Source: Nitrospina sp. (GTDB lineage Bacteria; Nitrospinota; Nitrospinia; Nitrospinales; VA-1). From it: a DNA stretch of 64,000 nucleotides. A program made the position numbers and the translations under genes. A model generated the notes under the pieces. That model made no database searches and was not told the origin of the DNA. It saw only the letters and a program-made list of their open reading frames with translations. Below, one piece after another: positions 30,959-38,048 of this stretch. The stretch spans positions 1-64,000 of the forward strand of contig JABHBK010000044.1 of the NCBI GenBank assembly GCA_018673915.1, in the 5' to 3' direction. Position 1 is the first letter of the stretch. Each line of letters begins with the position of its first letter.

Positions 30959-31894
30959 CTAGGAAAGTTTCATTTCAGGGCCAAGCGGGATGAGACCTTC
31001 GGAATACTGTTCGCCAAACTCCGGGAACAGGTCGGGGTGGGTGCAATGGGCAAGGATTTCCAGCGAGTCCAGAATACGCGGACCGGGGCGATTGAAGTAG
31101 GAGTTTCCATCCACCAGATAAAACCGCGTGCCTAAACGAGTTTGCCATTTCTTCCAGGGAAGTTGTGCTTTCAATTGTTCCAGTTCTTTTACTGTCTGGT
31201 CCAGTTTATAGCCGCAGGGTTTTACCACCACCACGTCAGGCTCTATCTTTTCCAGATCTTCACGGCTGACTACCGGCGCAGGCTCCCCGCTCTCTGCAAT
31301 GCATACCTGTCCCCCGGCAATATGGATCATTTCGGGAAGCCACATACCACCAACATAAATTGGGTCGATCCATTCTATCGTCAACACCTTCGGCCTTTGT
31401 TGGGCCCAATCGGCAAGACGCTCACGTACGGCTTGGATCCGCATATCAACTTCTTCCTGAAACGCATGCCCGTTGTGTTTGACTCCTAGTTTCTCAGCGG
31501 TGCTGAGAACATCGTTCCAGATATCTCCCAGCCTTTTGGGTCTGAGAGAAATTATTTTGCAATCCAACAATTCCCGGCAGGCTTCTTCCACTTGCGAGAA
31601 GGAAACGGCACAGACATCGCACAAGTCCTGCGTCACGATAAAATCCGGTTTTAAGGATTTCAACAACTCCACATCGAGGTCATATACCGACACCGCGTTT
31701 TTCATTACTTCGAGAACGGAATTATGAATCCCCCTGCTATCAAGCTTGGAGTTGGCACGGGTGGACGTAAGACGGGGAAGAGATTGAACCTTCTCCGGGT
31801 AATCGCATTCATGCGACACCCCCACCAGATTTTTCTCCAACCCGAGTTTCACCAGAATTTCTGTTGCCGAAGGCAGTAAGCTAACCAGTTTCAT
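30959..31894 (-). CDS. cobalamin-binding BtuF-like protein without a signal peptide
   Basis: 'MKLVSLLPSATEILVKLGLEKNLVGVSHECDYP', 'VTQDLCDVC', 'WIDPIYVGGMWLPEMIHIAGG', 'NRPGPRILDSLEILA'. Confidence 0.8.
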   Translation of the reverse strand: MKLVSLLPSATEILVKLGLEKNLVGVSHECDYPEKVQSLPRLTSTRANSKLDSRGIHNSVLEVMKNAVSVYDLDVELLKSLKPDFIVTQDLCDVCAVSFSQVEEACRELLDCKIISLRPKRLGDIWNDVLSTAEKLGVKHNGHAFQEEVDMRIQAVRERLADWAQQRPKVLTIEWIDPIYVGGMWLPEMIHIAGGQVCIAESGEPAPVVSREDLEKIEPDVVVVKPCGYKLDQTVKELEQLKAQLPWKKWQTRLGTRFYLVDGNSYFNRPGPRILDSLEILAHCTHPDLFPEFGEQYSEGLIPLGPEMKLS

Positions 31895-34211
31895 AGGTTC
31901 TTCTTAATGGTTTGAAAAATAAAATTAGTAACAAAATAAATGCTACGCCACTGATGGAGGCACCCATTCTTAATCCTAACGGCTCATAAAAAAACTCTAC
32001 ACTATGATTCCCCGGCCCTAATTTTACCCCTCGATAAAAATGATTCGCCTGGTAAATTCGTTGCGGTTTTTCGTCGACCTCCACCTTCCAACCGGGAAAC
32101 CAGGTATCAAGCAAAACCAGAAACCCTTCTTCGTTTTGTTTGGTTTTAATCTTGACTCGGTTCGGGCTATATTCGATCTCCTCAATCTGACCAGAGAACT
32201 GCTTGCCTGCTTTCATTTCGACGGACTCTGTCAACAGGACTTGCTTAAGCGGATCGAATGCCGGGTCGTAATAAGTATTAAACCAATTCGATTCCAACAC
32301 CTGCCGGGATTCTCCGACCAAAAATGCGCGCGGCAGGGCATCTTCAAACACTTTCACTTTTTTAATTCCTCTTGGATACTGGGCAGAAGGCAACTGCTCG
32401 AAGTCTTCTGTTACCCAATATTTCACATTACTGCGTTTCAAAATTGTCTTTTTTATCGGGATATCAGATGATAGAAACAAGTGGTACCAGAGCAGGCTCT
32501 GATTCAGCTTCAGGGTGGCCTCTCCCTCGGCATAAGCTAAACCATAAATCGCCCCAAGGTTTGGATAGACTTGATCCCGCGTGGCCAGCTGGACACTCAG
32601 CAGATTAAAAAGAGGTTGATCGGACTGGGAAGAGGGTGTCTTCGATTCACTTTCGGGCGGATTGGAAGCAACCTTTTTTTTTCCCGGCTTATCCATCAGC
32701 ATTCCACTATAAACACGGAAAGAATCGGCCGTTCCCCCCAGGCGTTTGGCCAGCGGCGGAGGATCGGTATAAAACTCCCGGTCAATCAGAGGTATTAGCA
32801 TGGAGTTTTTCCCCATCAGGTCCAGCACCATCAAAAGCAAAAGAAGGCTAAAGAATCCCGACCGGTTCACCTTTTTTAAATGCAGGGCAAAAATGCCGAC
32901 TGCCAGGAGCAATAAGATCATCAGGCTCTCTAGTCCAGCCCGGTTGGCATCTATTCCAAACATTAACCCGACTCCGGCCGTAGTTACAAATAGGGCAAGC
33001 AGGAGTTTTTTCATTTCCCTTTTCTCATGAGGGATCGCTTTGACAAACCTATCGAGAGACCATGCAGACAAGAACACCATCGCAAAAGCGCAAAAGAAAA
33101 AGAATTTTTGCGGGTAGCGGAACATGCTGAACACAGGAACCCAATCATAAAACAAGAAGTAGATAGGATTGGAATCGCCCAAAGCAAAAAACACTCCCGC
33201 CCCAAAAACCATTAGCCAAAATCGGATAACTTTTTGCTCCCTACTGACCAATAAACAAGCGAACAAAATAAACATTGGGACAATGCCCATATAAATGCTT
33301 TGCACGAAATAATCCATTCCGCCGCCATCCTGTTCTAGAAAATGTGTGAAGTTCTCGGGCAGGAAAAGCCCAAGCAAAGCACTTGGCTCCAATGCCCAGA
33401 TGGTGCTTGCGGAGTAAGCTATGCCGGCACTGCGTCCTGTCTCTTTTAACAAATAATAGGTGGGTATCCATTGCAAAGCAGAAAGAGCCAGTGCTAGCCC
33501 CACCAATGCAAGTATAGCTAGAGTTTTATGTTTGAATCCTTTTAACCTCTCCTCATCTTTCGCCAGACAGAGCGAATGAGCATAAACCAGTAAGACAGAA
33601 AAAATCGCGTTTTCCGGCCCACCCCCTAACACCTGAAAAACCAGGAAAGCCACCGCACCACAGAAATATTTCATCCGGGCTTCAGCCATAAATTTCTGCC
33701 ACACCATAAGAATTAACGGAAACCATATGGCTGACTGAAACTGGTTATAGACCGAGGCCAGTGATAAAAAATATCCTCCCAGCAGAGCAGTCAGCGATGC
33801 ACAAAGAGACGCGGGAATAGATCTTTCCCAGTACCGACACAGGGCATATACCGATGTCATCAGAACTACATGGTGGAACAGAAAGTAAGTATTGAAGGCG
33901 AATGAAAAATCTTTCAATAAAAATAATAACGAAGGAGGATAGAATACTCCCGGATGCATCAAGGACATTAAAGGAATACCCTGCAATAGATTGGGGTACC
34001 AGTAGGGCCATTCTCCTTCCGCCCATACTCGGGCGAGGGCTAATTTCATGGGGTAGGCAAAATGATGGATGTCCCGAAAAAAGAAAGTCTTCCCTTCAAA
34101 CAGGACCGGGTAGAAAAACAGGGTAAAGACAAACAGGAGAAAACAGGTTGGCAACAAGGGCATCCCATAACGAGACAGGATGTTATTCTTCAATTTGTAT
34201 TCCCGAAACAA
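31881..34211 (-). CDS. YfhO-family multi-pass membrane protein (GT-C fold glycosyltransferase-like)
   Basis: Many TM helices, 'PNLLQGIPLMSLMHPGVFYP', 'FRYPQKFFFFCAFAMVFLSAWSLDRF', C-terminal 'LLDTWFPGWKVEVDEKPQRIYQANHFYRGVKLGPGNHSVEFFYEP'. Confidence 0.85.
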   Translation of the reverse strand: MFREYKLKNNILSRYGMPLLPTCFLLFVFTLFFYPVLFEGKTFFFRDIHHFAYPMKLALARVWAEGEWPYWYPNLLQGIPLMSLMHPGVFYPPSLLFLLKDFSFAFNTYFLFHHVVLMTSVYALCRYWERSIPASLCASLTALLGGYFLSLASVYNQFQSAIWFPLILMVWQKFMAEARMKYFCGAVAFLVFQVLGGGPENAIFSVLLVYAHSLCLAKDEERLKGFKHKTLAILALVGLALALSALQWIPTYYLLKETGRSAGIAYSASTIWALEPSALLGLFLPENFTHFLEQDGGGMDYFVQSIYMGIVPMFILFACLLVSREQKVIRFWLMVFGAGVFFALGDSNPIYFLFYDWVPVFSMFRYPQKFFFFCAFAMVFLSAWSLDRFVKAIPHEKREMKKLLLALFVTTAGVGLMFGIDANRAGLESLMILLLLAVGIFALHLKKVNRSGFFSLLLLLMVLDLMGKNSMLIPLIDREFYTDPPPLAKRLGGTADSFRVYSGMLMDKPGKKKVASNPPESESKTPSSQSDQPLFNLLSVQLATRDQVYPNLGAIYGLAYAEGEATLKLNQSLLWYHLFLSSDIPIKKTILKRSNVKYWVTEDFEQLPSAQYPRGIKKVKVFEDALPRAFLVGESRQVLESNWFNTYYDPAFDPLKQVLLTESVEMKAGKQFSGQIEEIEYSPNRVKIKTKQNEEGFLVLLDTWFPGWKVEVDEKPQRIYQANHFYRGVKLGPGNHSVEFFYEPLGLRMGASISGVAFILLLILFFKPLRRTYETG

Positions 34212-34227
34212 AAAAAACCATTCTCAT

Positions 34228-35178
34228 TCAACCTTTGAGATGCTTGTTGTTTTCCATATCAAACCACATGGCAAAAAGTAAAAACTGCAAGCCGGACATC
34301 ACCAGAAAAACCGAGAACAACGCACTAGTGGTTGAAACCGGTCCCGAAAAAATTCGGTACAGGAAAAGATAAAACCCCGTAAACGCACCGGCGGGAAAAG
34401 CGATCAAGCCCAGGGTGTAGAAAAATACCAGCGGATGAAAATCGCGGATCACGTATTTCTCAACAAGCCTGCGAAAAAAACAGTTGACCAATAATCTTGA
34501 GATGGTGATGACCACACGCGAAATGCGTATTTCGGAAACCTCTCCTATATTGTAAACAGGGCGAACCGGAACATCGCGCACAGAACAATCTACAATATTC
34601 AGCTTAACCAACAAGTCATTGGGCATGCCATATCGGGGATAGATGTTTTCCAGATCCACCAACTCCATCGCCCTTTTTGATATCGCGGTGTACCCGCATT
34701 GAGTGTCCGCCACATGCCAGTAGCCACTGGCAATCTTAGTTAGCAAAGATAAAATACTGTTACCGATATACCGGTGACGGGGAATGATGTCCCAGGCTTT
34801 TCCCTGAAACAGGCGGTTACCCTTGGCATAGTCCACCCCTTCCAGGGCCACAGGTCGTATGAGATTTTCAAGGTCTGCCGGATCCATTTGAGCGTCCCCA
34901 GCCATGACCACCGCAATATCGACATCATTTTCCAAGCTCGCTTTATAGCCGGTGCAAATCGCCGCTCCCACCCCTTGGTTTTTGTCATGGCGAATCAAAA
35001 CAATTCGAGAATCGGCTTCCATTCTTTCATGCACTTTATCTGATGTGGCATCCTGGCTATGATCATCGATAACAAAAATATGATCGATCCAGTCAGGAAG
35101 AGTCTGGAGCATCTTCTGAATCAATTTTTGCTCATTATGAGCGGGAACCACTACTGAAATCACTTTATCTTTATGCAT
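34228..35178 (-). CDS. glycosyltransferase family 2, polyprenyl-phosphate glycosyltransferase-like with C-terminal TM helices
   Basis: 'VISVVVPAHNEQKLIQKML', 'VIDDHSQDAT', 'VVMAGDAQMDP', 'ADTQCGYTAISKRAM', two or more C-terminal TM segments. Confidence 0.9.
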   Translation of the reverse strand: MHKDKVISVVVPAHNEQKLIQKMLQTLPDWIDHIFVIDDHSQDATSDKVHERMEADSRIVLIRHDKNQGVGAAICTGYKASLENDVDIAVVMAGDAQMDPADLENLIRPVALEGVDYAKGNRLFQGKAWDIIPRHRYIGNSILSLLTKIASGYWHVADTQCGYTAISKRAMELVDLENIYPRYGMPNDLLVKLNIVDCSVRDVPVRPVYNIGEVSEIRISRVVITISRLLVNCFFRRLVEKYVIRDFHPLVFFYTLGLIAFPAGAFTGFYLFLYRIFSGPVSTTSALFSVFLVMSGLQFLLFAMWFDMENNKHLKG

Positions 35179-35189
35179 TTTTGGCTCCC

Positions 35190-37393
35190 TTAAAAAGACC
35201 CCAGTTGTTGAAGTCGTTCTCGTACCTGCTTTAATTCTCCAAGCGTTGCAACCCTTGCCTGCGCCTCCACTAAAGACCGCTTAGCTTTTTCCGGGTTCCC
35301 CAAAGCTATCCAGATATCTGCCGATTCAAAATAAGGGCGAAATGCTTCTTGTTTTTTTTCCGCAGCGATCCTAAAAGAATTGAGGGATTTTTCCCACTCA
35401 CCTTCTTTACTTAGCAAGAGTCCTTCTGCTAAATAAGTTTCAAAATTTTCAGGAAAAAATTTTCTCATTGTTTTCAGTTTCGTCCGGGCCTCTTCCAGTT
35501 TTCCATCCAAGGTCAAGTTATCCACTACTTTTAAATACCAGTCAACTCCACCCTGGCCGAGGAACTCACGCATAACTATGAGAACTTCCATCTCCTCCTT
35601 ATAGTAGCCTGCCGAATGAAAATATGCGGCAAAAGAAGGGATAAAATAGGAAACCTTTAGGATCCACCTGGATTCATTCTGAATGCCAGGCACAGCCAGT
35701 TCTTCTTCCAGCCATTGCTTAAATTCCCCAAATCCTTTACCAGGATTTATGGGTTTGCTCACAGGATTTTCATCTTGAGGGCGGTAGCGCAGTAATAGGT
35801 TCTTGTCTGGGACTAACCTTTCTGCCAAGGAAAACTCGCGCAGAAAAGACAAGTTTTGTTCGATCAGCAAAGGCCGTTCCCTGGCATTTTGGTCGAAAAA
35901 CTCGGTCATATATAAATACGATTCTTCTCGGGAACCAAATCGATGGCTTTCCGGGCTCGGTAGTTTGAGATCAGGGTACCTTTTTTGTGTCATATAAAAA
36001 GGAGGATAGGAATCCAGGAAATCCCAGGCTTTCATAAAAGTGACATCATCCCTGAGTCTCATCACATCCTGATGATAAGCCGAATTGAACCAGGAAATTC
36101 CCGCCACAAAAATACTGTTATCGTCCAACGAAAGAATCATGCGTTGCAATAATGACTGAGCAAAATAATTTCCAGAACGGTCGACTTTGCCGTAGTTGGC
36201 GGAAGACAGCCACACCACGAATCCCACAAGAACGAGAGTAACTAATACTTGTTGGTTGCCTGCCCGCCGAGACTCCTTTTGTGTATTTGGGGAATTGCTT
36301 GACCCGTTTGCTCTGGCTACCTGGTTAAGCCAGAATAAAAAAGCCGATGTCCACAAACACGCCACAATGTAGGTGGGGAAATAACTCTCCTTTTGCCATC
36401 CCACAAAAAACGATGCATTAACCGCCACAATCAGCAGAAAGAAAAGAAATAATGGGCGATTCGCCTTAAAACAGAGTAGGGCGCCAGCAAAAAACCCGAC
36501 AACAATTACAGGTGTCAGTTGATTATTCAGGTCTTTGGCCAACATTCTTACAACATACAAGGTGTTTACCCCCAGCGAATTCAGACCCCTCCAAATTGTA
36601 TTGGTATTATCCGTTTTTTCTGCCAGCAAATCATCGAAATGGGTTTCCGCATGTTGCCGGTCTGTGATGTGATATATAAATTCCTGAATATTTTCCGGGT
36701 TCCCCCAATCAATGGTGGGTTCAGTAAACGAGCGGATTGGTAAATACAGATAGACCGAAAATCCTATTAAAAAAACCAAACTGGAGACGAGAAGATATTT
36801 AAAACGTGCCTTGCGCTCCCAGGCAAGAAACAACAATACGATGGCAGGTAAATAGAATGCCACGGTTGCATGGTTTCCTGCGCTCAACCCATAAAAAAAA
36901 GCCGCCGCGAAGAGGAAGCGCACATCTTCATTTATATTCCACCGCAGGAGCAAATAAATAATCAAGCAAGTAAAAAAAGAATGCAGGGTATAAACTTCTG
37001 CAACAATTGAGTGATACCAGAAGGGCTCGCTGAAGGCTAGAATCAGAACAGGGAACAACCCTTCAATGATTTTAGATTCTCCTGGTCCATGCAATATTTC
37101 CAAAAATAGATTGGCTGAAAGATAAAGAAAAACCAGGGTGAGACACGCAAAAACCAGCGAAAAAAGATTGACCTTGAATGCTATTGATCCCAGAGGCAAA
37201 AACGTAAAGGCTTTGACCAATAAATTATAGGTAGGAAAACCCGCCGGATGACTTACGCCTAAAGCAAAAGTGGTGTCGATGAATTCCGGGGAATCACGAA
37301 AATCAATGGAAGGAGCAAGAGTACTTAGATAAAAACAGGCGGGAACAAGGATTAAAAAAAAATTGTCCGAATCTTTGAGTGGGATTCTGTCAT
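35190..37393 (-). CDS. DUF2723 family protein (GT-C, O-mannosyltransferase-like) with C-terminal TPRs; reading frame interrupted at a homopolymer near the 5' end
   Basis: The called ORF 35190..37220 begins at TTG, but the in-frame sequence upstream encodes conserved N-terminal residues (...TLAPSIDFRDSPEFIDTTFALGVSHPAGFPTYNLLVKAF); an ATG at 37393 reads MTESHSKIRTIFF then stops at the T9 tract, and joins that frame if one T is added. Confidence 0.75.
37354..37362 (-). repeat. homopolymer tract (A9 on +, T9 on the coding strand) causing an apparent frameshift in the DUF2723 gene
   Basis: attaaaaaaaaattgtcc on the + strand. Confidence 0.85.
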
Positions 37394-37424
37394 CAGGGGT
37401 TTACCGAAATATTTAAAAGAAAAA

Positions 37425-37457
37425 TCCCCACCTCCCGCCTTAGGCGGCAAGTGGGGA
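37425..37457 (-). terminator. rho-independent terminator downstream of pilA
   Basis: tccccac ctc ccgcc tta ggcgg caa gtgggga nested stem followed on the minus strand by TTTTTCTTTT. Confidence 0.8.
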
Positions 37458-37479: not shown

Positions 37480-37863
37480 CTAGCTTATATTACCAACAGA
37501 ATTCATGGTAAACGTTACACTACTCGCATCCGAGGAGTGAATCGACGTTGCAGCAAAGGTTGATTCTGCTCCATTAGTGATGGCAACGGTAACATTACCT
37601 GAAGCTACCCAACCATAAGAAGCCGCCGAGGCTAGGAGTGTTGTACAAGCACTCGTACCCGCATTATCCGCCCAGTAAGCTTTGCAGGCCAAATATATGT
37701 TATGCAAGTTGCCTTTTGCATCAGATTGATAAGCTCTGTTTTTGTAAGCACTAAATTGAGGAATTGCGATAGCCGCCAAAATGCCGATAATAGCGATAAC
37801 AATCAATAACTCAATAAGTGTGAAACCTTTTTCTCCTTTAACCCGCCTGAACTTAGATAACAT
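37480..37863 (-). CDS. pilA: type IV major pilin-like protein
   Basis: 'GEKGFTLIELLIVIAIIGILAAIAIPQFSAYKNRAYQSDAKGNLHNIYLACKAYW' prepilin signal; GAGGAG upstream favours the second ATG at 37863 over 37869. Confidence 0.93.
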   Translation of the reverse strand: MLSKFRRVKGEKGFTLIELLIVIAIIGILAAIAIPQFSAYKNRAYQSDAKGNLHNIYLACKAYWADNAGTSACTTLLASAASYGWVASGNVTVAITNGAESTFAATSIHSSDASSVTFTMNSVGNIS

Positions 37864-37932
37864 TTTCATCTCCTCATTATGATTAACAAAATAAACTTGG
37901 GATAGACGATATTAATGACTATCCACTATCTA

Positions 37933-37949: not shown

Positions 37950-38048
37950 TAAAATAATAATTATGATTATTTATTATAACCTCTTTTGTTTTAATGTGTT
38001 ATAAAAAAAAATTCTCACCGTAGGGATTCAAAATCTTAAATTATTCAT

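Follow-up and report, generated by a model that had tools for sequence, protein, structure and literature searches.

How does a marine nitrite-oxidizing bacterium of the Nitrospina group make a membrane glycosyltransferase from a gene whose start codon and main reading frame are in different phases? The gene lies on the minus strand of the window, the 64,000-nucleotide stretch of Nitrospina sp. DNA (contig JABHBK010000044.1) analyzed here, and its two frames meet at a run of nine T's. A sequence-only reading of the window proposed a phase-variable switch or a homopolymer error, and programmed recoding was absent from its readings. The comparisons below indicate that programmed recoding of one kind or the other very probably occurs at the tract, and that the T9 is likely to be an obligatory, start-proximal recoding site operating by transcriptional slippage. 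A stuttering polymerase is favored over a broken or switching gene because 18 related species keep the same "wrong" frame.

The glycosyltransferase gene is split over two frames

The minus strand from position 37393 reads ATG ACA GAA TCC CAC TCA AAG ATT CGG ACA ATT TTT TTT TAA. This zero-frame ORF (37352..37393, minus strand; ATG at 37391-37393) consists of 13 codons, MTESHSKIRTIFF, and a TAA at 37352-37354. The stop comes directly after the T9 tract (37354..37362, minus strand; A9 on the plus strand), which is read in the zero frame as ATT TTT TTT TAA. The main frame (35190..37360, minus strand) encodes a DUF2723/TMEM260-like GT-C glycosyltransferase with a C-terminal TPR-like part. It opens directly after an in-frame TAA located 5' of the tract, its 720 downstream codons are intact in the window, and it would be entered only after recoding. 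One added nucleotide at the tract, or equivalently a -1 ribosomal shift, fuses the two frames, and the sequence-only reading had described exactly this split and the expected N-terminus that an extra T/U restores. The T9 sequence is identical in the window and in the genome assembly.

The earlier statement that the DUF2723 frame lacks a usable upstream start also holds. Scanning this frame in the window between the upstream TAA and position 37220 found no ATG, GTG, or TTG. The first canonical start is a TTG (minus strand) with its first base at 37220, which is unlikely to be the true start because TM1 and the conserved D-S-P-E-F loop would be lost. The main frame must therefore be entered from upstream.

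A profile search matched the main frame to PF11028 (TMEM260-like) with E = 8e-33 and 114 bits against a curated cut-off of 24.2, and the match starts at residue 20 of the main-frame translation (P0001). The human TMEM260 structure 9rql was matched with E = 6.5e-22 in an alignment that begins at residue 5 of the main-frame protein, and the D-S-P-E-F loop near the N-terminus is conserved among the orthologues. These matches assign the main-frame product as a TMEM260/DUF2723-like membrane glycosyltransferase. Its likeness to the DUF2723/TMEM260 protein O-mannosyltransferases (PF11028) is one of sequence family, and O-mannosyltransferase activity is putative.

The phase of the split is conserved in two families

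The search for orthologues covered 77 genomes of the phylum; Nitrospina sp. MAGs (isolates SI048_bin14, SI073_bin113, and SI073_bin146) are the closest relatives with a name. Intact orthologues with a tract at the homologous point number 18, with T9 in 14 and T10 in 4. They come from two families and nine genera (g1, g3, g4, g5, g6, and g8 of the window's family, f1; g12, g13, and g15 of family f4), range from 39 to 63% G+C, and cover 10.85 amino acid changes per site on the protein tree. An ATG is found 22-36 nt upstream of the tract in all 18, always in the same phase. The distance from the ATG to a main-frame reference codon is 32, 35, 38, 41, 44, or 47 nt, and all six values are 2 mod 3. 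Spacing changed at least five times on the tree and the phase was kept each time; the tract switched between T9 and T10 at least four times without any phase change, the flank being altered as well in the T10 orthologues. A productive ("ON") frame occurs in 0/18 of the intact tract-bearing orthologues, and the main frame downstream of the tract is uninterrupted in the other intact orthologues as well. With tract and frame relation found together in every one of the 18, the split at T9 exceeds chance by this comparison.

Three of the orthologues are MAGs with MEGAHIT-style contig names (k141_), which suggests short-read assemblies for these three. MAG consensus sequences report one tract length per genome and not within-population variation, and the N-terminal part of one orthologue (G016) falls inside a run of N. 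Leader substitutions by codon position were 16/18/16 over 50 pairwise differences in this short segment. The case for leader translation thus rests on phase and on likeness to in-frame N-termini, because there is no third-position bias.

Nine T's are retained under selection

In a ten-row alignment of the orthologues the nine T columns are invariant, and the surrounding DNA is about two-thirds identical. The codons TTT TTT TTA are kept in genes of 60-63% G+C, where TTA accounts for 1-7% of the Leu codons of the gene. The odds of this retention by codon usage alone are roughly 1e-17, a figure obtained by multiplying per-gene odds for one gene per genus, with the genera treated as independent and the encoded amino acids fixed. 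In-frame relatives vary at the homologous site, which encodes FCL, LLL, LFL, or FFL as TTT TTT CTG. Two tract-bearing orthologues (L008 and L040) have neither I nor V in the codon before FFL, and an extra TTT maintains the long run. The remainder of the 18 genes (38.9 kb) contains 33 T7, 14 T8, and zero T9 runs. The comparative data identify a tract of at least nine T's as selectively retained and the frame relation as conserved. On the same data, the ninth T distinguishes the site from tolerated in-frame T8 sites. In many genomes, selection against A/T runs sets in at a length of nine (PMC1088944).

A census of at least 91 A9/T9 tracts in the same genome (L043-L072 and L078-L137) was checked for frame junctions. 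Nine-tracts are not strictly avoided, because the tracts listed include in-frame A9 in about 35 genes and in-frame T9 in about six. The greater frequency of in-frame A9 would fit a stronger tendency of poly(T) to slip. In the window's coding DNA, T runs show a small, suggestive avoidance. Two further mechanical frame-junction candidates among the tracts listed were rejected: L086 reads as the end of one gene followed by the next, which by eye appears to encode methionyl-tRNA formyltransferase, and L058 seems to lie antisense to a long ORF. A second T9 in the window (38003-38011) is upstream of the pilin gene described below, in non-coding DNA that separates this gene from a divergently oriented NadD-like gene.

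Relatives without the tract and broken genes

Nine orthologues belong to family f2. Eight have a readable 5' end and are tract-free with ordinary in-frame ATG starts; the ninth (L009) is cut off there. In-frame f2 N-termini such as MTQTTQLRPIFFLILF match what the recoded genes would give after the shift. One closed genome of the window's own family (G017) is also tract-free, with an in-frame start and an open main frame, and its tract loss maps to one secondary change on the tree. At this locus (L077, G017:C1:698000-703500) the pilin-glycosyltransferase order is kept and the in-frame start overlaps the terminator region, an apparent natural reversion.

The only tracts in another register are two T8 runs. 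The G022 gene carries a second frame break, and the G011 gene is a relic that has lost most of its length. The register is thus maintained only in live genes, as T8 occurs at this site solely in the two broken ones. The G011 relic (L024, L030; about 2595-2919 of G011:C54) is a decayed glycosyltransferase between the pilin and GT2 genes in which the ATG and T8 are still visible, and the gene is being lost in that genus while its neighbors stay. Five genomes of the same genus that are at least 94% complete (G002, G003, G005, G009, and G012) gave no glycosyltransferase match, making presence patchy within the genus.

Probable transcriptional slippage and possible ribosomal frameshifting

In the mechanism that we prefer, translation would start at the ATG 31 nt 5' of the tract, and on a faithful transcript it would stop after 13 codons. 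RNA polymerase would realign on the T9 to yield a fraction of mRNAs with one additional U (or two lost), on which the ribosome would continue through FFLIL... to make the full-length protein. Slippage would thereby hold enzyme output to a small, fixed proportion of transcription. We infer both that the polymerase rather than the ribosome makes the slip and how efficient the slip would be. Slippage genes are recognized by an A/T homopolymer, at least 8-9 long, where the frames join, and T9 or T10 occupies that position in 18/18 orthologues. For the RNA polymerase of Escherichia coli, slippage on T7-T8 is 5-10% and poly(T) is the preferred tract (PMC6260861), and values of 15-55% are given for known cellular slippage cases (PMC4256274).

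Programmed -1 ribosomal frameshifting, with the ribosome slipping back one base on U_UUU_UUU before the UAA of a faithful transcript, is an unlikely but credible source of the full-length protein. The heptamer is in zero-frame phase in 18/18 orthologues and the zero-frame stop directly follows it in 14/18, and ribosomal frameshifting may contribute because this perfect heptamer is present in every case. However, in-phase U_UUU_UUU occurs 21 times elsewhere in these 18 genes, at sites where slipping would be deleterious, and thus the heptamer alone is not avoided. Tract length in the intact orthologues is always 9-10 and never the 7-8 that would be enough for a ribosomal slip, and the extra TTT in L008 and L040 also argues against this mechanism. 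A -1 site combines a slippery heptamer with a stimulator, either an SD-like element upstream or a stem-loop or pseudoknot downstream; the heptamer was found, but no stimulator. No Shine-Dalgarno-like element was found 5' of the tract in the orthologues, pseudoknot-free folding of their sequences showed no conserved downstream RNA structure or consensus fold, and their genes showed no synonymous constraint downstream of the tract. An Rfam search returned no match, and single-sequence folds were ordinary except for L020 (z = -2.7) and, weakly, L004 (z = -1.5). Transcriptional slippage is placed above the ribosomal shift because of the heptamers elsewhere, the lack of an SD-like element, fold, or synonymous constraint, the ninth T, and the published slippage of RNA polymerase.

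Another explanation, that ribosomes reach the main frame by reinitiation or a non-AUG start and that the ATG ORF acts as a regulatory leader peptide, is very improbable. The short ORF does terminate at the tract, and most species have no SD before the ATG, but between its stop and the conserved loop the main frame has no conserved near-cognate codon, and the stretch examined contains none at all in two orthologues (L022 and L023). We reject this explanation for want of a conserved codon, and it would also leave the nine invariant T's and the fixed phase unexplained.

Phase variation, in which the T9 mutates by slipped-strand replication to turn the gene on and off, has the classical layout in its favor, since the gene is of the surface-glycosylation type with a homopolymer close to its 5' end, and A/T tracts are hypermutable. 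A phase-variable locus should exhibit both ON and OFF lengths among genomes, but the 18 genomes all share one unproductive frame, the T9/T10 differences are compensated in the flank and never change phase, and the phase-changing length occurs only in the dead genes. The description of the gene as switched off by its T9 is not supported: 18 species in nine genera share the non-productive phase and none has the productive one. The alignment of orthologues at the tract, a check suggested by the sequence-only reading, disfavors a fixed fault of a single strain, and on orthologue phase we reject both phase variation, for which there is scant probability, and the error explanation. Least probable of all is an error in sequencing or assembly, or a pseudogene produced by a recent inactivating frameshift. 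Although the genome is a draft of 75 contigs and the window gene has only one frame break, the same break recurs in 18 species with independent flanks and as T10 in four, the downstream frames are intact, and the two true pseudogenes look different.

The gene neighborhood suggests pilin glycosylation

A conserved type IV pilin (PilA-like) gene (37480..37869, minus strand) is directly upstream of the glycosyltransferase gene in the window and in nearly all orthologues. Between the pilin gene and the ATG is an intrinsic-terminator-like hairpin, CCCCACTTGCCGCCTAAGGCGGGAGGTGGGG, followed by ATTTTT (37422..37457, minus strand), and most orthologues have a similar hairpin (both by eye). The hairpin was rejected as a slippage stimulator because its distance of ~60 nt from the tract was judged too far for published stem-loop-stimulated slippage. 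A GT2 glycosyltransferase gene of the polyprenyl-phosphate sugar synthase type (34228..35178, minus strand) begins 11 nt downstream of the DUF2723 stop, and a gene for a YfhO/PgfM2-like membrane protein (31881..34211, minus strand) follows within a few bases. From this spacing the three genes probably form one operon, with a putative role in pilin/pilus glycosylation. Polarity would probably hold the GT2 and YfhO-like genes low too. The YfhO-like gene has an A9 in frame on its sense strand (32674-32682) that is not at a frame junction, and slippage there could truncate some of its product.

Discussion

A precedent in position is prfB (RF2), a cellular gene with a conserved, obligatory frame change near its 5' end, as proposed for the T9 site. 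The prfB frameshift is used in over 80% of eubacterial species (PMC3711429). It is ribosomal, in the +1 direction, and relies on an SD-like stimulator and stop-codon feedback, none of which was seen at the T9 site. Close mechanistic precedents are Shigella flexneri mxiE and spa13, in which a homopolymer likewise parts two frames and the functional long product comes from mRNA carrying one non-templated nucleotide; slippage of 20-30% for mxiE and 55% for spa13 is cited in PMC4256274. Unlike these genes, the glycosyltransferase belongs to another gene family and phylum, its slippage is predicted from sequence, and its tract lies ~7-12 codons after the start. Slippage would be obligatory here because the site is start-proximal and the faithful product is usually just a peptide of 10-15 residues. 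In Citrobacter rodentium tssM1 (A11), RNA polymerase slippage of ~20% (PMC4256274) restores the frame without ribosomal stimulators, but the tract is poly(A) and the late site yields two long variants.

Our literature search, mostly outside subscription journals, found no paper mentioning DUF2723, no description of recoding in DUF2723/TMEM260 genes, and nothing linking Nitrospina to recoding, and the novelty of the slippage case in this group is provisional. Conserved obligatory transcriptional slippage over large distances is rarely documented in cellular genes. Here it appears to be kept in a chromosomal glycosyltransferase over nine genera and two families of the Nitrospina group, with ready-made controls in the in-frame relatives, the one lineage that lost the tract, and the dead genes out of register. 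Automatic annotation likely miscalls these genes as truncated, as starting at an internal TTG, or as pseudogenes.

The case bears on why a cell gates a surface-glycosylation enzyme by polymerase infidelity. One speculative answer, which we consider doubtful, is that slippage acts as a metabolic sensor in which the productive mRNA fraction follows nucleotide pools or the transcription rate. If so, glycosylation of the pilin encoded upstream would be tuned to growth state across an order of marine nitrite oxidizers.
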